Positions 11,509-21,465 of a stretch of 64,000 nt of DNA are shown piece after piece (position 1 is the stretch's first letter; each line of letters starts with the position of its first letter). The position numbers and the translations under genes are program-made. Source of the DNA: Selenomonadaceae bacterium (GTDB lineage: Bacteria; Bacillota; Negativicutes; Selenomonadales; Selenomonadaceae); NCBI GenBank assembly GCA_017549815.1, contig JAFYNH010000092.1:62001-126000 (forward strand). The letters run 5' to 3'. The notes below the pieces were generated by a model. The model did not search any database. It saw nothing but the letters and a program-made list of their open reading frames with translations, and had not been told where the DNA came from.

Positions 11509-13407
11509 TCAGTTTTTCGGCTGTATCGTGCCGCTCTGATAAGCCAATAAAAGCTTGTGCAAGCCAATAATCTCGTCGCGAATTCCTTGCCCGTGATCTG
11601 TATCGCCAACCGTCATGTGGTGCGACAAAATTTCAACAGTCTCCGCCGTCGACTCAATATCTTTATTCTCGGCAAGCGCAGTTTTAACGTCCGCGATTTT
11701 TTGATGACGTAAAAGCCTAAAGCCCCGCGAATTAGAAATAAGCGTATAACCCGATATGCCCGTCTTTTCGTGGTAGGGCGTGCTAAATCCGCCGTCGATA
11801 ATTACCGCCTTGCCGCCCGCCTTTATCGGAGTCTCGCCCTTGCGAACACGAACTGGAACATGCCCGTTGATTATGTGCCCGCTCTTTGAATCAAGACCGA
11901 ATTCCGTCAAAATCGCGTCGCAAATTTTCGGGTCGTCAATCAAATTATAGTAAGCGTCGCTCGGCTCCTTCCAAGTTTCCTTGTCGTCGATAAATGCCCG
12001 CTCGAACGTGTGAAACTCTCTGCCCGCCGTCGGCGACAATAACCCGCACCATAAAAAATACATAAAATCCAAATCCTCAATTTTCCTGTCGTAGTAAGCT
12101 CGACGCGCCCGCTTGTCCGCGTAGTCGAAATAATCTTTGCCGCTGTAAGTCTCACCATTAAAAGAAATTTTCTTAAACGAGCCGTCCACCTCAAAAGGAA
12201 CGTTCGCATGGAAAAGTAAATTGCCATTGTGGCAGGTGTAGACGCCGCCCTTTTTGTAAAGAAAATCGACGTGCCTTTGAAGATTCGCGCTCGATAAAAA
12301 ATTTTCTCGCAAGCCCGAAATAATTTCGTTTTCTTCAGTCGTCAGCATGTAAATATCATCAGAATTTTTATCCAGCGTCGGGAAGTTCATCGTGTTGAGT
12401 TTGTAGCTTTGCCCGCCGATATTAACCGTGCCCGCGTCAAAATTAATTTTGTCAAGCAAAAGCCGACTTCCCATTTTAAAATCGGGATTGCGGCGAATCA
12501 TTTGCCCTTCAAGCTTAAACATCATCATTAAACACGCAAGCTCGGCGGCGCGAATAGGATTTTCATTAGGATAAAGATTCGACGCGAAAATTGTCAACGG
12601 ACGCAAGCTTATTCCGTAGCCGCGCTCCAAAACGTCGGTGTTATTATAGTGCAAAGAATTTTTCACGACCGCCGCGATACAAACTTCACTGCCGAGAGCC
12701 GCGCCCATCCAAACTACGTCGTGATTGCCCCATTGAATGTCAACTTCCGCAGGGTGATTCATCAGCAAATTTAAAATTGCATCGGGACGGTCGCCTCTGT
12801 CGAAGAAGTCGCCGACTAAATGCAAGCGGTGTATCGCCAGCCGCTTTATCAGTATCGTGAACGCGCAGATAAAATCCTCGCCGCTGTTTATTTCAACTAT
12901 CGAGTTCAAAAGTTTTTCGTAGTAAATTTTCTGCGCCTCGTCGTCTTCGGGGTGCGTGTTCAAAAGCTCCAATATCACCGTTTCATAGCTGTTCGGAATA
13001 AGCTCGCGCATTTTGAACGACGGATATTTGAAACTCATAAACTTAGACAGCTTAACCAGTCGCGCCAAATTTTTCCTGTACCAAATCGACGTAGCGCGTC
13101 CTTGCGATTTAATCTGCGCGATTTTTTCTTTAGGATAATAAATCAGCGTGCAGAACTCCGCGATTTCGTCTTCGCCCAATAAGTCGCCGAAAATATAATC
13201 GACTTTCTCGCGAATGACGCCAGAACAGTTATTGATTATGTGCAGAAATAAATCGTATTCGCCGTGCAAGTCGCTCATGAAATGTTCGGTTCCCTTCGGC
13301 AAGTACAGCCGCGATTGCAGATAAATCAGCTTTTCGTAAATGGATTCCTTCGTCGGATATTTTTCCGATAAAATTCTCATCAAACTCGCCGCAAAATCAT
13401 AACTCAT
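11509..13407 (-). CDS. fbp: Fructose-1,6-bisphosphatase, class III (Firmicutes type)
   Basis: 632 residues, the expected length of the class III enzyme that dephosphorylates fructose-1,6-bisphosphate in gluconeogenesis. Phosphoesterase motifs are visible: FMSDLHGEYD near residue 43, LVGDFFDRGDRPD (metal ligands) and WGNHDVVWMGAALGS; NGHVPVRVRKGE and IDGGFSTPYH lie near the C-terminus. The family uses Mn2+ and is typical of Firmicutes. AGGAGG precedes the ATG, 12 bases after the trkH1 stop, so the gene closes the long minus-strand run. Confidence 0.96.
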   Translation of the reverse strand: MSYDFAASLMRILSEKYPTKESIYEKLIYLQSRLYLPKGTEHFMSDLHGEYDLFLHIINNCSGVIREKVDYIFGDLLGEDEIAEFCTLIYYPKEKIAQIKSQGRATSIWYRKNLARLVKLSKFMSFKYPSFKMRELIPNSYETVILELLNTHPEDDEAQKIYYEKLLNSIVEINSGEDFICAFTILIKRLAIHRLHLVGDFFDRGDRPDAILNLLMNHPAEVDIQWGNHDVVWMGAALGSEVCIAAVVKNSLHYNNTDVLERGYGISLRPLTIFASNLYPNENPIRAAELACLMMMFKLEGQMIRRNPDFKMGSRLLLDKINFDAGTVNIGGQSYKLNTMNFPTLDKNSDDIYMLTTEENEIISGLRENFLSSANLQRHVDFLYKKGGVYTCHNGNLLFHANVPFEVDGSFKKISFNGETYSGKDYFDYADKRARRAYYDRKIEDLDFMYFLWCGLLSPTAGREFHTFERAFIDDKETWKEPSDAYYNLIDDPKICDAILTEFGLDSKSGHIINGHVPVRVRKGETPIKAGGKAVIIDGGFSTPYHEKTGISGYTLISNSRGFRLLRHQKIADVKTALAENKDIESTAETVEILSHHMTVGDTDHGQGIRDEIIGLHKLLLAYQSGTIQPKN

Positions 13408-13428
13408 AAAAATTCCTCCTTACCAATT
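13405..13428. repeat. 24-base direct repeat, copy 1 (trkH1 stop / fbp start)
   Basis: The bases from the final Asn-Trp-stop codons of trkH1 through the ribosome site to the fbp ATG are identical to 17461-17484, where trkH2 ends and the methylase begins. Part of the match is expected (AGGAGG, ATG), but the whole junction including the spacer is the same. Confidence 0.85.
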
Positions 13429-14880
13429 CTTAGACGAATTCCAAAATGACGGACTCATTAGCGCAAGTACAGTAAAAATTTCAAGGCGGCTTAAGAACAT
13501 GAAACCGCAAGCGCAAAATTTACTAAAGCTCGGCAACAAGGAATAAGTGCTGGTCGCGCCCTCAATACCAAAGCCCGGACCGACGCTCGCCATAGTCGAA
13601 ACGCTCACGCTAATTGCATTTACAAAATCAATTCCGTCAAACATCATCACCGCCGCAAATAAAACGTCAAGCACCACAACCGCAAAGAAAAATTTCGCCG
13701 CGCCGTAAACAATATCATCGTCAATCGGTCGTCCGCTCAAAGTAACTTTGCTAATTAAATTCGGGTGAAGTTTTTGCCTAACAATCAGCGCGACAAATTT
13801 GAACAGCAAAATTATCCTAGCAACTTTCAAGCCGCCCGCCGTCGAACCCGCACAACCGCCTAAAAACATAGTCATCATCAGAAAAGCTTTGCTTAACGGC
13901 GGATAAGTATCGAAATCGTGAGCTACAAAGCCCGTCGTCGAACTCAAGCTTGCCACGTGAAATATCGACGCCCGAATCGCCGTTTCAACGTCAAGTTTCA
14001 TTTCCAAAATCAAATCGCTCGCAACGACTATCGCCGCGATAAAAATTATCGTCAAATAAGTCCTGAACTCCGTATTGCGCCAAATCACGCCCGCGCCCTT
14101 GCGAAAAGCGATTACATACATGGCAAAACTTCCGCTCGACACGACCATAAAAAACGCCATGCAATATTCGAGATAAACATTGCCGTATTCGCTGACAGTC
14201 CCATTATAAATGCCATAGCCGCCCGTCGCTATCGTCGTCATTGCGTGATTAATCGCCGCGAACGGAGTCAGCCCGCATAAAAAATAGCTCGCCGCGCAGA
14301 TAACAGTTAAAGTAACGTAAATCGTAAACAACGCCTTAGCATTATCGCGAATTCTCGGCATTTGCCTATCCTTAGTCGGTCCTGTCGTCTCGGCTTTCAA
14401 AATAAACATCGCGCCGCGCCCGAATTGCGGCATTATCGCCATAAAGATTACGACAATTCCCAGTCCGCCGAACCAATTTGATAAACTCCGCCAAAGTAAA
14501 ATACTGCGCGGCAAAACTTCTACGTCTTCCATAACCGTCGCGCCCGTCCCGCTAAAACCCGAAAATGATTCCGTAAAGCTGTCTAGTAAATCTAAATAGC
14601 CGCCCGCAAAATACGGCACGAGTCCTAAAATCGAAATTAATAGCCAGCCTAAGCCCGTTATTGCTATGCCTTCGCGTATGTTGACGTTATCTTTTTCCTT
14701 TAAGCCGCCGAATCGCTCAAGCTCGAACGTCGCCGCTAAGCATAAGAAAATCGACAGTAAAAAAGCCGCCGCCCCGTCGAATTCCTCCGTCGTCGCCGCT
14801 AAGATAAACGGCGGAACCATCGCCGCGCCGCAAAATAATGTTAAATAGCCGAGTAAGCCCGCTACTATTCGTCGATTCAT
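13420..14880 (-). CDS. trkH: TrkH/KtrB-family potassium uptake membrane protein (copy 1)
   Basis: 486 residues from the ATG at 14880 (MNRRIVAGLLGYL); a longer frame would run back into the HNH gene and lacks support. About ten membrane segments in the four-fold MPM repeat plan, with selectivity-filter glycines in segments such as FSGTGATV, TIATGGYGIYN, SLSSTTGFV and TMASVGPGFG. GGGLGIVVIFMAIMPQ... is also typical. The family forms K+ (or Na+) channels gated by a cytoplasmic RCK protein (TrkA/KtrA), which is not in the window. It starts one base after the HNH gene stop and ends next to fbp. A second trkH lies at 17476. Confidence 0.92.
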   Translation of the reverse strand: MNRRIVAGLLGYLTLFCGAAMVPPFILAATTEEFDGAAAFLLSIFLCLAATFELERFGGLKEKDNVNIREGIAITGLGWLLISILGLVPYFAGGYLDLLDSFTESFSGFSGTGATVMEDVEVLPRSILLWRSLSNWFGGLGIVVIFMAIMPQFGRGAMFILKAETTGPTKDRQMPRIRDNAKALFTIYVTLTVICAASYFLCGLTPFAAINHAMTTIATGGYGIYNGTVSEYGNVYLEYCMAFFMVVSSGSFAMYVIAFRKGAGVIWRNTEFRTYLTIIFIAAIVVASDLILEMKLDVETAIRASIFHVASLSSTTGFVAHDFDTYPPLSKAFLMMTMFLGGCAGSTAGGLKVARIILLFKFVALIVRQKLHPNLISKVTLSGRPIDDDIVYGAAKFFFAVVVLDVLFAAVMMFDGIDFVNAISVSVSTMASVGPGFGIEGATSTYSLLPSFSKFCACGFMFLSRLEIFTVLALMSPSFWNSSKNW

Positions 14881-14881
14881 T

Positions 14882-15994
14882 TTATTTCTTTCCTTTTGCC
14901 CGATTACATGCCTTGCATAGCATTTGACAATTTTCCGAAGTCGTTTTGCCGCCCGCGCTCCAAGCCTTAATGTGGTCGGCATCCATTTCTTTAAACTCAA
15001 ATTCCTTGCCGCACTTTGCGCATTTGTGATTCTGTCGCTCGTATGTCGCTCGCTTCATCTTAGGCGAAAATTTCCGAATGCTCAAATGCTTTTCGTTGCC
15101 GTCCAATAAGTATTCGTACACGCCCGAATTTTTCGTAACGTCATCATCAATCATTAACTCAACAATTTTTTTCTCCAAATCGTCCGCGTCCAAAAATTTC
15201 TTGCCGTGCTTATTATAAAAAATTCCCCACGCCAAGCCTCGCATTTCCTTGCGATAATTCGGGAACGTCGCCTTTACCCACGCAAAGATATTTTGAAAAT
15301 AAATCCAAAGCTCGTTGCAATGCGTATCGTGTTGATGACGCGCCATATATTCTTCTATCGAAATACCTTCGCGGTCGGCTATCCACTTCAAAGCCGTTTC
15401 TAAATAATCCTGTTGAATCGCTTTGCCCTTTAAATATTCTTTATAATTTTTTTGCGCCGCGCAGTCTTTTTTACTGAAAAACTTCTTCGCCGCCGTCAGC
15501 CAAGCTCCCGTGTAAACTATGTTGCGATTTTCCTGCGCCGTCAGCTCCATGCCCGCGATATTCACTATCCTAAACCAATCGAGCTTTTCGCGGTCAGTTC
15601 CGCCGTTGCAAATGTATATCATCAACTTATAATCAAGGATAATATTTTTCTCGTCCTCCAAAAGATTTTTGAAGTAGCGGCTCTTGTCGACTGCAAAATC
15701 ACCGTTGATATATTGGCAAATGCTGAGGGTGCGCTGTTGCCCGTCCAAAAGTTCATAAGTTCCGTCGCCGTTCGCAACCCAATACATCACGTTCAGCGGG
15801 AAATTTTTTTGAATACTCTCAATCACTGCGCGGCGTTGCTCTATTTTATAAACAAACTCGCGCTGATAAGGCGGTCGAATATTAAGCTTGCCGCCGTAGC
15901 CGAAACAACCTTCCGCCGAATTATCGACGTAACCTTTAACGACTTCGCGGACAGTTATTTCATGCAGTTCAATTTTCATCGTGCCAATTTTCAT
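14882..15994 (-). CDS. DUF262-HNH endonuclease (candidate restriction nuclease)
   Basis: 370 residues. The N-terminal DUF262 (GmrS/ParB-like) domain has PPYQREFVYKIEQRRAVIESI followed by LLDGQQRTLSI (DGQQR at about 84-88), the nucleotide-handling motif of this family. The C-terminus (about 325-370) is an HNH nuclease with two CxxC metal knuckles (CAKCG, CKAC) and catalytic DADHI. The two domains meet in GmrSD- and SspE-like restriction factors, which cut foreign or modified DNA; here the nuclease is HNH rather than DUF1524. It follows the nucleotidyltransferase by three bases, with GGAGGG before the ATG. Together with the methylase it looks like a defence operon. Confidence 0.88.
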   Translation of the reverse strand: MKIGTMKIELHEITVREVVKGYVDNSAEGCFGYGGKLNIRPPYQREFVYKIEQRRAVIESIQKNFPLNVMYWVANGDGTYELLDGQQRTLSICQYINGDFAVDKSRYFKNLLEDEKNIILDYKLMIYICNGGTDREKLDWFRIVNIAGMELTAQENRNIVYTGAWLTAAKKFFSKKDCAAQKNYKEYLKGKAIQQDYLETALKWIADREGISIEEYMARHQHDTHCNELWIYFQNIFAWVKATFPNYRKEMRGLAWGIFYNKHGKKFLDADDLEKKIVELMIDDDVTKNSGVYEYLLDGNEKHLSIRKFSPKMKRATYERQNHKCAKCGKEFEFKEMDADHIKAWSAGGKTTSENCQMLCKACNRAKGKK

Positions 15995-15997
15995 TAT

Positions 15998-16402
15998 TCA
16001 TCCCTCCGCATATAAAAGCACCTCATCATTTTTTATCTCCGACAGAAATTGTTTATCGGAAATCCCGTTACCAACCAAATCCACATGGCAACCAAATTCA
16101 TCTTCCAAAGCCTGTATAAATCCGAAATAAGCGAACATTTCTTTTGAGTGTATATTATCATAAAGAAAATCCAAGTCGCTTTGAGCGTCAGCCTCGCCGC
16201 GTGCATAGCTCCCGAACAGCGACAATCTTTTTACGCCGTATTTTTTCGCTATCGGTATCACTTTTGCCTTTATTTCTTCCAGCGTGTAGACTTTATCGCC
16301 TTTTTCTTCGCGAAGAATTTTCTTCACCGAGTCTAGTATCTTTTCAAGCGATTTTTCCGTCGCATTGTCCAACAAATCGATTATATCTGCTCGCGTACTC
16401 AT
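15998..16402 (-). CDS. MNT-type nucleotidyltransferase
   Basis: 134 residues from the ATG at 16402, preceded by GGAGGA and overlapping the methylase stop (ATGA); the longer upstream frame would lie inside the methylase gene. The pol-beta nucleotidyltransferase motif is complete: LFGSYARGEADAQSDLD, with Gly-Ser at 64-65 and the two metal-binding Asp at 76 and 78. About 50 helical residues precede it. Small MNT enzymes usually serve as antitoxins that AMPylate HEPN toxins, but no HEPN gene is present; here the partner would be the methylase or the HNH nuclease. A regulatory AMP-transfer role is inference. Confidence 0.85.
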   Translation of the reverse strand: MSTRADIIDLLDNATEKSLEKILDSVKKILREEKGDKVYTLEEIKAKVIPIAKKYGVKRLSLFGSYARGEADAQSDLDFLYDNIHSKEMFAYFGFIQALEDEFGCHVDLVGNGISDKQFLSEIKNDEVLLYAEG

Positions 16403-17463
16403 TTCTCTATCCTCCGACGAATAAAAATTCGTTTGTAAATATCTTTGCCTTTGATTTTTGCGCCCCATGAAGTTCCACTAACATGACAGCCGCAATCACC
16501 ATAGCTGTAAGTGCAACCTAAAACTTCAAACTGTCGCGGGTCATAATATTCAAGAAAAGTAATCGGAACGCCCATAACGCCATAATAATCTTCGGGGATT
16601 TCGGCGGTCTTTGAAACTTCTATCGCGTCGTAATTATCATAGCGCGGATTTTTTTCCGGTGAATATTTTTCGTAAAGAGGAATGTCTTCTCGGAACTTTG
16701 CAATCTCAATATTCGTGAACCAAATCGATTGACTTCGCGCCATATATCGTCCGTCGTGAATTACAATCGAACGGTCTTTTCCATTATCTAAACCTTCATC
16801 AATATAATCTTTAGGCACGTCGAAATAAATTTCCCGACTCATCGGCATAAACCCGACAAAAAGTTTATCGTCTTTAATCAACGGGAAAATTTCCTTATAA
16901 GTGAGCGCGTTTTTGTTGCCGATAATGAGAAATTTTTTATCGTATTCAATGAGCAGGGCGACAAATTCCCTAAACACGCTGAACGGCGGATTCGTTACCA
17001 CAACATCTGCCTCTTTTAAAAGTTCGATACATTCTTTGGAGCGGAAATCGCCCGCGCAATATTTTTCGTCGCCCGTCAGTTGTTGCGGTTTATAAATCCC
17101 TTGCGCCAATGCAAATTCTACGTCGTCCCAATTTTCTGCGCCGTCGCCGTTGAAATCTCGGAATTCGTCTATTTCGAGTTTGTAAGCAGTCTTGCCGTCG
17201 GGGAAAAGATTAATTTCCTTGCCAGCAATCGGCGAATCGGCGTAGCTCGTTATGATTAATTTCTTAAGCTCGTAGTGATTGAACAGCATAATAAAATGGA
17301 CAAAGAATTGACTTTCAATGGGGTCGTCGCAGTTGCATAAAACCACTTTGCCCTTGAAAAAATCTTTGTAGTGATGAACTTCGTTTTCTATATCCTCAAG
17401 CTGAGTGTAGAATTTATCTTTTTTAGCCTTAGCCGCCGTGTTTAAATTTCTGTTACCAGCCAT
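16399..17463 (-). CDS. EcoRI-type adenine-specific DNA methyltransferase
   Basis: 354 residues. It resembles the M.EcoRI family: KFYTQLEDIENEVHHYKDFFKGKVVLCNCDDP (the cofactor-site region, CNCDDP at 43-48), then VVTNPPFSVFREF with the NPPF catalytic motif at 158-161, and a GNKNALTYKEIF segment. Such enzymes transfer methyl from S-adenosylmethionine to adenine N6 in a specific site. AAGGAGGA precedes the ATG. It is the first gene of the methylase-nucleotidyltransferase-HNH cassette, 12 bases downstream of trkH2. No EcoRI-like nuclease is adjacent, so the DUF262-HNH protein is the probable nuclease partner. Recognition site unknown. Confidence 0.9.
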   Translation of the reverse strand: MAGNRNLNTAAKAKKDKFYTQLEDIENEVHHYKDFFKGKVVLCNCDDPIESQFFVHFIMLFNHYELKKLIITSYADSPIAGKEINLFPDGKTAYKLEIDEFRDFNGDGAENWDDVEFALAQGIYKPQQLTGDEKYCAGDFRSKECIELLKEADVVVTNPPFSVFREFVALLIEYDKKFLIIGNKNALTYKEIFPLIKDDKLFVGFMPMSREIYFDVPKDYIDEGLDNGKDRSIVIHDGRYMARSQSIWFTNIEIAKFREDIPLYEKYSPEKNPRYDNYDAIEVSKTAEIPEDYYGVMGVPITFLEYYDPRQFEVLGCTYSYGDCGCHVSGTSWGAKIKGKDIYKRIFIRRRIEK

Positions 17464-17484
17464 AAAAATTCCTCCTTACCAATT
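17461..17484. repeat. 24-base direct repeat, copy 2 (trkH2 stop / methylase start)
   Basis: Identical to 13405-13428. The two copies bracket trkH1 plus the three-gene defence-type cassette, about 4.06 kb apart, in direct orientation. Confidence 0.85.
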
Positions 17485-19002
17485 ACTTTTTTTGCGCTTA
17501 AACTTCAGACCAGCGACCGCAATTAACAACGCAAAAATCTCCAGCCGCCCGACGATTAAAATCATCATGCAAAAAATCTTTCCAAGCTCCGATAAATGCT
17601 TAAAATTCTCGGCGTCGCAAAGTCCCGGCAAAATTCCAACGTTCGATAAGCAGACGATTGAAATTGAAACCGCCTCCGAAAAAGTTGCGCCCGTAAAACT
17701 TAGCACTGCCGCGCAGATAAACATTGTCAACAGCGCAAGGAAAAAGAATCCCAAAATCCGCCCGACCGTTTGCATTGGGACGGGCAAGTCGCCAACTTTT
17801 ATCGCCGTCATCATGCGCGGATGAATCGTCTTTTGAACTTCCGCCGCCGTGATTTTTATTAGCACAATCAATCGCACGATTTTAAATCCGCCCGTCACCG
17901 AACCGATACAACCGCCCGTCACCGCCATTAGGAAGATAAAAAATTTGTCGAAGTCGTGAACCGCCGCATTGTCAAGCGTTATGCCCGTCGTACTTACGAA
18001 TGAGACGACATAAAACAGCGACCGCCGAAATGCCTCGTTGCCGTCAAAGAATGCTCCCTGCGAAAATAATCTGAACACCAAAATTAACATTGCAAATAAA
18101 ATCGTCACGTAGAGGACTTTCATCTCCTCGTTGGCGAAGACGAATTTCACGTTGTCGATTAGCGTCCGCTTGAATCTTTGCGAATATTGACGGAGCCGCA
18201 CACGATAATTTTTATTGAATTCGATTCGCGGCGGGAGCATTGTATAAATCACGCGGTAATAAAGCAAAAAGTTTCCGCAAGCAATCAGCATTACGAGAAT
18301 TGCGGCATATTCGACATAAACATTTTGCCGCGCAGGGAAAAAATCTCCGCCGCCCGTCGAGATACAACGCATCGCCATTAAAAGCGCGTCCCAAAATCCT
18401 AGCCCCGCTAATTTGAAAATTCCAAAGCTTAACGCCGTCAAAGTCGAGTAAACTTTTATGACGCGAATGGACATTTGATTCATTTGCCCGATAATCGCGC
18501 TGAAACTTTGTCCGCCCTGCAAGCTCAAAGAGATTCCGAAACAGCCGCTTACTTCGGGCAAGACCGTCACGAGCATTATCAAGAATAGGAGCGAGCCAAG
18601 CCACATTAGCGAACTTTGCCAAATGCGCAGGAGATAAGGCGCGTCGTTCGGCAAAATCGAAAGTCCTGCCGAAGTTAAATCGCCAACGGTTTCTAGGAGT
18701 GCGTCGAGTGGCGACAGCCAACCAGTCAACATAAACGGCAAGCAACCGAAAATCGCCAGCAACGGATACATGATTAAAATTGCCGCCGCTGATTCGGCAA
18801 TGGGTGCCCGTTGAAATCTGCCGACGCCGAATTTGTTAAAAATTACTCCTGTGATGATTGAAAAGCCGCCTACTGCCGCGAAGAAAAGCGTTGTATCGAG
18901 TGCGCCGAATTCGATTATCGTATAGGCAATGGGCAACAGGAGCGTCGCCGCGAACGTCAGCAAGGCTTGGCTTTGGATTCGCAATATCATTTTAAAATTC
19001 AT
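17476..19002 (-). CDS. trkH: TrkH/KtrB-family potassium uptake membrane protein (copy 2)
   Basis: 508 residues, about ten membrane segments. Filter-region motifs match copy 1 in position but not in sequence: LTSAGLSILP, CISTGGGDFFP, FVSTTGITLDN and CLSNVGILPG. The C-terminus ends in Ser-Asn-Trp, as copy 1 ends in Lys-Asn-Trp. The middle half is clearly diverged, so this is an old paralogue rather than a fresh duplicate. It could pair with copy 1 or serve a different ion. No TrkA/KtrA gene is nearby. The ribosome site (GAGGGG, about 12 bases away) is weaker than its neighbours'. Confidence 0.9.
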   Translation of the reverse strand: MNFKMILRIQSQALLTFAATLLLPIAYTIIEFGALDTTLFFAAVGGFSIITGVIFNKFGVGRFQRAPIAESAAAILIMYPLLAIFGCLPFMLTGWLSPLDALLETVGDLTSAGLSILPNDAPYLLRIWQSSLMWLGSLLFLIMLVTVLPEVSGCFGISLSLQGGQSFSAIIGQMNQMSIRVIKVYSTLTALSFGIFKLAGLGFWDALLMAMRCISTGGGDFFPARQNVYVEYAAILVMLIACGNFLLYYRVIYTMLPPRIEFNKNYRVRLRQYSQRFKRTLIDNVKFVFANEEMKVLYVTILFAMLILVFRLFSQGAFFDGNEAFRRSLFYVVSFVSTTGITLDNAAVHDFDKFFIFLMAVTGGCIGSVTGGFKIVRLIVLIKITAAEVQKTIHPRMMTAIKVGDLPVPMQTVGRILGFFFLALLTMFICAAVLSFTGATFSEAVSISIVCLSNVGILPGLCDAENFKHLSELGKIFCMMILIVGRLEIFALLIAVAGLKFKRKKSNW

Positions 19003-19055: not shown

Positions 19056-19775
19056 CTAAAAATATCTGACTTCATCGCGTAAAAAGCCCAATTCATAAAT
19101 TTGCGGTTCCAATTTCGCTGATAACTCACTTAAATTTATCGACGCGCCTAAACTCATTCTTATCTGATACCAGCCCGCGTCCCAGTCTTCGATTTTGAAT
19201 TTCCGAACGTCGAGTTGCGAAAGTTCCGCATAAAATTTCTTGTAAATAGCCCGCCCCGCGTCCAAAACAGTTTTAGACTGAGCGGAAAGCGGGTTATTTT
19301 TTATCCATAAAGCCGCAAAACGGTCTTCAGTCGCAAGGGCAATTTGCATTCTTATTTCGGGCGACGAACATTCCCAATCGCGAACTTCCGATAACAGGAA
19401 CGGGAAGAAATTATTTTTTATCCGATAAAGCTCGCCCTCATATTCGACGTTGCGCAAGGAAACCGTTTGATTTGAAGGCGCAAATAAGCTCCAGATTACC
19501 GCGTCCGTGATAAATTCCCGCGTCAACGGCTTTGTCGGCTGTAAAAATTGGTCGCGGTCGTTTAACCACGTCGCCTTTGGTAAGCGGCGCACCATGTGAA
19601 TTATCATTGCCTGTTCAAGATTCTCTGGCGTGATTGATAATGCGCCCGCGCTTACATAAGGAGCCGATAATAAAGCTGTATAGTTTTGATGAGTAAAATC
19701 ATTTGCTACACACATAAACGACGCTAAAAAAACCGTCCGAAATTCTATCGCGGCGGTCTTTATTTTTATAAGCAA
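19056..19775 (-). pseudogene. C-terminal part of the type IIG enzyme, out of frame
   Basis: This 239-codon frame reads on from the methylase gene at 19699 after a shift at an A7/T7 run (19726-19732). Removing one T from GGTTTTTTTAGC joins residue 578 of the upstream frame to ...ASFMCVANDFTHQNYT and gives an intact protein of about 803 residues. The segment (VRRLPKATWLNDRDQFL, NNFFPFLLSEV) looks like the specificity and C-terminal region of a type IIG enzyme. No good ribosome site precedes its own first ATG. It may be a sequencing error, a true knockout, or a phase-variable switch. Confidence 0.7.
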
Positions 19776-21465
19776 CCGTCAATGCGCTTGATAATGGCGG
19801 AAATTTTATCGTGCAGGGCGAACGCTCAATCCATTTATTTAAAAATTCGCCCCGCCGCGCAGATTGTAAAATTTTAACGCCAATCTTTTCAACGTTCTCA
19901 TTAAAAATATCAAGAGAAATATTTTGCTCTTCGATAAAAATTTTCTCCGCCAAATTCCAAACGAGAAAGCAGACAGGAAATTGTCCCTTGCAACCGTTAA
20001 AATTTTTAGAGTTGAAGACAAAACCGCGTTCAAACTTGTAATTGAAAACTTTATCGCGGAGTCTTTGGTCGTTATTCGAGTTTATGTATTTAATCTTTGA
20101 AAAAATGCCCAGATAAGCATTGGAGAATTCGCGACTGATTCGGTAAATGAATTGCGAAAATAATTCGCGGCTGACTTCGCCGAGATTTTCAGCGTTCATA
20201 AGTTTTCTAATTTCAGTCATTGAAACGCCGTCTTTATCTTGGCGATTTTCTTTACGTTCAAAATTGCTAGCGGTGGCGTAGGGCGGATTGATAAAAATAA
20301 TCCAGTGCAGGTCGGGATTTTTTAAATCATTTGCGAGCCGCGCAGGCATTTTCTTTTTAATGCCCAAATTTTCAAGGACAAGCTCATTGCCGAAAAAATT
20401 CACGTCGTCATTTAAATAATCATACTGGAAAACAGTCGCGTCGGGGAAAATTTTCTTGCAATAATCGGCGTCGTCCTGAAGTAGCGTAGAAATATAGCAG
20501 TACTTCAAAACTTCGGCAGGGAGCGCGAATTCCAAATTGCCAGTCCCCGCCGCCATATCCCATATCCTGTACTTGCCGCTCGTGAAATCAACCGTCCGTC
20601 GCAAATATTCAACGGCTTTCTCCGCAAAGGCTATCGGCGTAAAAAATTCGCCCGTAAATCGCCGCAAAGAAATTTCGGACATCCTATCCATTTTCTGGCG
20701 AATGGCGATAACGGCTCGCGGATTAGTAATTTTTTCGTAGACGCTCCAAAAATGTTTGTACTCGTTGGCGTTGAGGAATTTCTCGACAAGTTCGCCGCCA
20801 CTCATGCGGAAAAGGACGCTCTGCCCGATAAGTTGCGATTTGCCTTCCTCAATATCCGTTATGAAATATTCCGACGCCTTGCGCCCGTTCTCTACCGCCG
20901 CACCGAAAATCTTCTGCCAAAGCTCGAATATCGGATAGAAATTATTTTCGTTAATCTCCTTGCGCTCGCCGAATAAGCTAAGCTGCTCGACAAGGTTGCG
21001 CTTGATGAGTTCGATAAAATTTTTTTCGTCCTCCGCCGCCGAAAAATCGTAGACGTGACAGCTTTTAACGGGCGCGAAGTCGGCAAGGTCGGCAACTAAC
21101 TTTTTACAGGGCGAACTCGGAGCTAAATCCCAGTCGTAGGATTTTCTTCTGATAAAGGCGGAAAAATTATCGGTCGGGAAGAAAATCGCGGCGTATTTGG
21201 TGACGACGCAAATATTTTTTGAGGGTGTGCGAATATCGGAGCCAAATTTAAGGCGGCGAATGTAGTAAAGGGTTTGAGCGACGGCGGCGGCTCGCGTTTG
21301 AATGTTATTAATTGGCGCGTCAAACTTGAACTCGAAAAGAATCTGCGCGGTGTACAGGTCGATAAAATTTTTGGTGGAGAGCTTGAGCTTAAAGAACTTG
21401 GCGAAGAAATTTTTAAGTTCTTCTTCGGTCGCGGCGTCGGATAAAATTTCGTGGAGAGTTTTCAT
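19699..21465 (-). CDS. Type IIG-like fused nuclease/adenine methyltransferase, truncated by frameshift
   Basis: 588 residues. Residues 36-47 (DLYTAQILFEFK) give D-x8-E-x-K, and AVAQTLYYIRR follows with the Gln helix, which together fit a PD-(D/E)xK nuclease domain. The methyltransferase core follows: GEFFTPIAFAEKAVEYL, motif I DMAAGTGNLE, and catalytic motif IV INPPY. Such enzymes methylate and cut near an asymmetric site with one polypeptide. The frame ends early (VVYVCSK-stop) just after a T7 run, and the specificity half continues in another frame (19056-19775). The ATG is one base past the heptosyltransferase stop, so it is co-transcribed with LPS genes, which is unusual for a restriction enzyme. 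Confidence 0.8.
   Translation of the reverse strand: MKTLHEILSDAATEEELKNFFAKFFKLKLSTKNFIDLYTAQILFEFKFDAPINNIQTRAAAVAQTLYYIRRLKFGSDIRTPSKNICVVTKYAAIFFPTDNFSAFIRRKSYDWDLAPSSPCKKLVADLADFAPVKSCHVYDFSAAEDEKNFIELIKRNLVEQLSLFGERKEINENNFYPIFELWQKIFGAAVENGRKASEYFITDIEEGKSQLIGQSVLFRMSGGELVEKFLNANEYKHFWSVYEKITNPRAVIAIRQKMDRMSEISLRRFTGEFFTPIAFAEKAVEYLRRTVDFTSGKYRIWDMAAGTGNLEFALPAEVLKYCYISTLLQDDADYCKKIFPDATVFQYDYLNDDVNFFGNELVLENLGIKKKMPARLANDLKNPDLHWIIFINPPYATASNFERKENRQDKDGVSMTEIRKLMNAENLGEVSRELFSQFIYRISREFSNAYLGIFSKIKYINSNNDQRLRDKVFNYKFERGFVFNSKNFNGCKGQFPVCFLVWNLAEKIFIEEQNISLDIFNENVEKIGVKILQSARRGEFLNKWIERSPCTIKFPPLSSALTVAYKNKDRRDRISDGFFSVVYVCSK

Follow-up and report, generated by a model that had tools for sequence, protein, structure and literature searches.

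A compact three-gene cluster was analyzed on the minus strand of a 64,000-nucleotide stretch of contig JAFYNH010000092.1 from a Selenomonadaceae bacterium (the window, meaning this whole stretch). The genes encode an adenine-specific DNA methyltransferase (M), a minimal nucleotidyltransferase (MNT) and a DUF262-HNH nuclease (R), and domain matches back all three as real genes between positions 17463 and 14882, as originally predicted. The MNT is very probably an orphan MntA antitoxin whose toxin gene, hepT, has been lost, and which is left nested in a two-gene Type II-like restriction-modification (RM) cassette between two trkH genes. The order on the minus strand is trkH2, M, MNT, R, trkH1 and fructose-bisphosphatase, with the following features:

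16399..17463, minus strand: M, EcoRI-family adenine-specific DNA methyltransferase, 354 amino acids (aa); PF13651 EcoRI_methylase (376 bits, E 1.9e-112), PADLOC MTase_II PDLC03297 (342 bits), NPPF motif
15998..16402, minus strand: MNT, minimal nucleotidyltransferase, MntA-like, 134 aa; PF18765/PF01909 (Polbeta/NTP_transf_2), GSX10DXD motif; probable orphan antitoxin, hepT missing
14882..15994, minus strand: R, DUF262 (GmrSD_N)-HNH nuclease, 370 aa; PF03235 and PF01844, PADLOC REase_II PDLC03418 (413.5 bits)
17476..19002 (19002-17476), minus strand: trkH2, PF02386, upstream flank, outside the cassette
13420..14880, minus strand: trkH1 potassium transporter, PF02386, downstream flank, outside the cassette
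13407-11509, minus strand: fructose-bisphosphatase

The overlapping and 3-base junctions of the original prediction were read as a 4 bp overlap (ATGA) between the M stop and the MNT start, given an MNT start at ATG 16402, and a 3 bp gap between the MNT stop and the R start (TGA-ATA-ATG). A GGAGG lies upstream of ATG 16402, and we judge the longer start at 16468, which gives a 156-aa open reading frame (ORF), to be less likely. R is separated from trkH1 by 1 bp. The span first proposed, 13420-17463, does hold the trio, but the trio ends at 14882 and the part from 14880 to 13420 is a fourth gene, trkH1. A pattern search found NPPF in M, GSX10DXD in MNT and DGQQR in R intact, as is the Cys4/DH-N-N HNH of R judged by eye.

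Judged from these sequences, M and R appear to constitute a widespread bacterial DNA defence pair, a two-gene Type II-like RM cassette. Scans of named genomes and viruses yielded 160 loci; in 152 of these (hereafter M-upstream pairs) the two genes share a strand with M upstream, and 137 of the 152 have a spacing of 120 nucleotides (nt) or less. Of 88 matching plasmid records 15 were listed, and 10 of these annotate both genes at the matched place, with the wording 'adenine-specific methyltransferase EcoRI family protein' and 'DUF262 domain-containing protein'. The pair is also carried by the sibling genome G071 and by a sheep omasum locus (L107). PADLOC holds Type II models for both proteins; residues 6-368 of R align to positions 1-370 of the 372 in PDLC03418, which places R in the REase family over its length, and the adjoining methyltransferase belongs to the paired Type II family (PF13651). 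The 'restriction module' of the original prediction is thus supported as far as M and the DUF262-HNH protein are concerned. Family membership suggests that M would N6-methylate a specific sequence and that R would cut unmethylated copies through its C-terminal HNH domain, while the N-terminal DUF262 region would probably bind or hydrolyse NTP and the helical middle would probably read DNA. Known M.EcoRI-family and DUF262-HNH pairs have the same two proteins, the same M-then-R order and the same tight junctions as the window, which differs in having the MNT gene between the two.

Alternatively, R could be a modification-dependent (Type IV) nuclease of the GmrSD/BrxU/SspE kind, with M marking DNA that R cuts, or that it ignores for some other reason. 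R shares with these enzymes an N-terminal DUF262 (ParB/Srx-fold) carrying DGQQR, and in a predicted structure (AF2, AlphaFold 2; pLDDT 87) its N-terminal domain is nearest to BrxU while its C-terminal domain is HNH-like. However, R has no DUF1524 match at E up to 0.01 and ends instead in a Cys4 HNH (PF01844, residues 325-370), it is paired with a methylase whose upstream position is near-constant in the scanned loci, and its family is modelled as Type II by PADLOC. A Type IV role for R is therefore considered unlikely.

The MNT is an optional part of this M-R pair. A profile made from MNTs of the window's genus found none in the gap between M and R in any of the 152 M-upstream pairs; its two matches in the 160 loci lie just downstream of R (L124) and on the opposite strand (L137). 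From the genus itself, 51 R loci were fetched besides the window, and 42 have M upstream. In six of the nine others a contig edge lies no more than 1.3 kb from R (M is downstream in one of them), and the remaining three are a short contig (L008), a locus with no M (L036) and one with M downstream (L065). The 42 gaps comprise 21 that are empty, 16 with a gene of the Fic, MNT, HepT, DUF4258 or MqsA-like families and five with something else; with the window counted in, 17 of 43 gaps hold genes of those five families. An MNT occupies seven of the 43 (the window, L033, L034, L041, L048, L084 and L080, the last being a different, HEPN-fused type), and in the window and L041 the gap holds an MNT and nothing else. 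Gaps were also empty at each of seven R loci belonging to other genera of the family. Rare co-occurrence of the three genes in other genomes had been named beforehand as a result that would speak against a three-gene module, and with 0/152 and 7/43 rare is what it is.

The evidence for an MntA identity comes mainly from the motifs and from the relatives. MntA antitoxins with GSX10DXD are described as AMPylating HepT toxins with RX4HXY (PMC7641770), and the window MNT carries this MntA motif as GSYARGEADAQSDLD at residue 64. In L033 (genome G076), L048 (G056) and L084 (G069), MNT is followed by HepT and then directly by R, all between M and R, and RX4HXY is present in each of the three HepT proteins; that of L033 matches PF01934 (E 8.9e-19), and the R of that locus is 93% identical to the window R. 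Since HepT follows in three of the six other genus pairs with MNT in the gap, the MNT has a known job that is independent of the nuclease. No HepT was found beside the window MNT, where only 3 bases lie between its stop and the R start, and in the window's own genome (94% complete) the single HepT match is on contig C92, beside another MNT. Relative to the type VII MntA-HepT (HEPN/MNT) toxin-antitoxin systems, with motifs as defined in PMC7641770, the window shares the GSX10DXD MNT, and three siblings add the adjoining RX4HXY HepT; it differs in the absence of HepT, in an MNT score below the NCBIfam MntA cut-off and in an N-terminal extension of the MNT.

Traces of hepT loss were found at several related loci. 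By eye, the join between the MNT end and the R start in the window matches that between the hepT end and the R start of L033 at 27 of 30 nt. In L034 (G087), which has an MNT without HepT, the stretch between MNT and R matches the start of hepT at 25 of 29 nt and then its end at 17 of 18 nt, with none of 500 shuffles as good for either match, and this remnant reads as a deletion scar. Solo MNTs elsewhere adjoin hepT stubs, as identified by blastp against nine HepT sequences at L348 (79% over 53 aa, E 6e-41) and L338 (E 8e-9); at L336 a stub of a few codons was recognized by eye only and gave no blastp match to these nine. A tree of 20 MNTs places the window copy as sister to the HepT-paired copy of G069 (support 98/95), and at least three changes between the paired and solo states, as we assigned these labels, are forced on well-supported branches. 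The window MNT also has a mosaic make-up: identity to G076 is 95.9% over the first 245 nt and 60.6% over the rest, compared with 78.0% and 80.3% for G069, so recombination probably took place within the module in one of the lineages.

From these observations, a MntA-HepT module would have sat between M and R, and a later deletion of hepT, which in the relatives is present at this position, would have left the antitoxin gene coupled to M and R. Because the MNT gene sits in the operon, the protein would be produced between M and R, with no need for a part in restriction; it would be a leftover antitoxin and, if still active, would AMPylate HepT-type toxins that arrive later.

Several observations weigh against this account. 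No hepT stub was found in the window itself, so the loss there is inferred from relatives, and the solo MNTs of G084 and G109 likewise have no recognised stub. The MNT is intact and conserved, with ratios of nonsynonymous to synonymous substitution (dN/dS) of 0.10-0.29 against four relatives, which could mean a kept function, although we take these values mostly to reflect the time before hepT was lost. Additionally, the NCBIfam MntA model gave 43 bits, under its cut-off of 60, when the 156-aa ORF was used.

A kept function could be one of anti-addiction, in which the orphan MNT is retained against incoming MntA-HepT modules, independently of the RM pair. The repeated loss of hepT while the MNT stays intact would fit such a role, as would the supply of modules: MNT matches occur in 44 of 66 genus genomes, several of the fetched copies adjoin HepT, and on contig C92 the window's own genome carries an MNT-HepT pair. 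However, the C92 MNT is only 52% identical to the window MNT over the matched part, which makes cross-protection uncertain, and recent loss followed by drift accounts for the same data. We regard anti-addiction as rather unlikely.

The gap between M and R receives more than MNTs in this genus. Its contents are MNT/HepT, Fic, or DUF4258 together with an MqsA-like zinc protein; the gap of L073 has a RelE-like gene that scored below its Pfam cut-off. Across the 42 genus loci, genes of the five families form 17 islands inside the gap, as against three in 398 kb of flanks, all three adjoining M or R; this count is biased, as the families were picked from the gaps. A less biased survey covered the 34 near-full-length Fic copies in 66 genus genomes, with placement by our own reading. 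Nine occupy the gap upstream of R (two of these on contigs that stop short of M), one lies directly downstream of R, and four follow an M-family methylase with no R within the fetched stretch. Nineteen of the other 20 were fetched, and most of those with named neighbours sit among housekeeping genes; for the copy in L316, two neighbours gave no Pfam match. Three Paludibacteraceae loci of the named-genome set, with near-identical proteins, have a Fic-like gene in the gap. These genes thus habitually nest in this genus, markedly so at the gap, though not there alone.

The broader theme is already known, as toxins inside RM operons have precedents in PrrC-PrrI and in the R-M-linked HEPN and DOC neighbourhoods described in PMC3710099. 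Toxin genes (HEPN, Fic/DOC) lie inside RM operons there as they do in the window's relatives; what differs here, as compared with the systems described in that source, is a two-gene Type II-like pair with ordinary toxin-antitoxin genes nested between M and R, of which the window keeps the antitoxin only.

Other arrangements were noted around these genes. In L320, L321, L322 and L326, Fic and/or DUF4258/MqsA-like genes come after a whole or partial EcoRI-family methylase gene, and the fetched stretch contains no R. The gaps of L050, L054, L077 and L085 contain antisense ORFs with a short hydrophobic stretch and a charged tail, type I toxin-like by look only. A pair of this kind on an Enterococcus dispar plasmid (L383, NZ_CP116586.1, 61-4699) has its EcoRI-family methylase and DUF262 gene separated, according to the annotation, by optrA, a predicted resistance gene.

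The variety of the nested genes bears on the proposal, made in the original prediction, of a new restriction module in which the MNT controls the nuclease. In such a module M, MNT and R would be one system, with the MNT nucleotidylating R, a DNA end or a cofactor and so restraining R until infection. The positive support for such control was position and an intact active site: the trio is tightly coupled, the catalytic motif of the MNT is preserved, and an MNT without HepT lies between M and R at three loci (the window, G087 and G084). The MNT also matches the PADLOC candidate PDC-S09 (72 bits over residues 62-150 of the 156-aa ORF, in output that shows no cut-off). However, unrelated Fic and DUF4258/MqsA-like genes occupy the same slot, so position does not imply control of R. 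Additionally, M-R pairs without an MNT are the rule (36 of the 43 genus gaps and all 152 others), the MNT is partnered by HepT in three siblings, and hepT stubs also accompany solo MNTs in other surroundings, for instance beside an mla-type operon. The MNT is thus highly unlikely to control the nuclease, and the trio is probably not a new three-part defence system, M and R being a known common pair to which the MNT is optional.

Related proposals are that the RM pair co-opted the MNT after hepT loss, to nucleotidylate R or HepT-like stress toxins freed on RM attack, as a second, MNT-gated defence, or that the junction of M and R is a docking slot where loss or inhibition of the RM pair frees a nested toxin. 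We consider these very unlikely, and an orphan MntA antitoxin continues to be the preferred reading of the window MNT.

The M-R cassette as a whole is, on comparison of related loci, an insert between trkH2 and trkH1. Matches to trkH1 were found in 66 genomes, and 30 loci were fetched. In four (G114, G111, G108 and G063), no more than about 125 bp separate trkH1 from a trkH2 upstream of it, and in 11, the window included, trkH1 comes after M, R or some portion of the cassette, among them M only (G056, G074), Fic-R (G110) and a decayed R end (G060). Neither trkH2 nor cassette parts were found within up to 1.5 kb upstream in the other 15.

The trkH2/trkH1 junction is a docking site in the genus, being empty or holding M-R, M only, Fic-R or an R relic by genome. 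In G085 trkH2 is followed by a Fic gene, after which comes a trkH1 start, where the contig ends, and in L379 (G100; G100:C20:11085-11303) extra copies of the last ~20 R codons lie between R and trkH1. In the window, an identical stretch, AATTGGTAAGGAGGAATTTTTATG, occurs at the trkH2/M and trkH1/fructose-bisphosphatase junctions (17455-17495 and 13400-13435). Farther upstream (19056-21465), two overlapping ORFs (588 and 239 aa) resemble a methylase-type restriction gene that has been split, with an NPPY motif by eye; neither had a Pfam, NCBIfam or PADLOC match at E up to 0.01.

The novelty here is modest and consists in the recurrent nesting of toxin-antitoxin genes between M and R within a single genus, together with repeated toxin loss. 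A nested slot in this two-gene family with repeated toxin deletion did not turn up in the searches made. Altogether, a tempting but probably false three-gene 'new system' gives way to a testable evolutionary pattern, in which toxin-antitoxin genes of three unrelated types have repeatedly come to nest between M and R of one RM family in one genus and the toxin is repeatedly deleted while the antitoxin is retained. Should selection maintain the nested genes, they would act as devices of addiction or back-up for the RM pair; if they are not under selection, antitoxin relics can pass as defence components in guilt-by-association screens.
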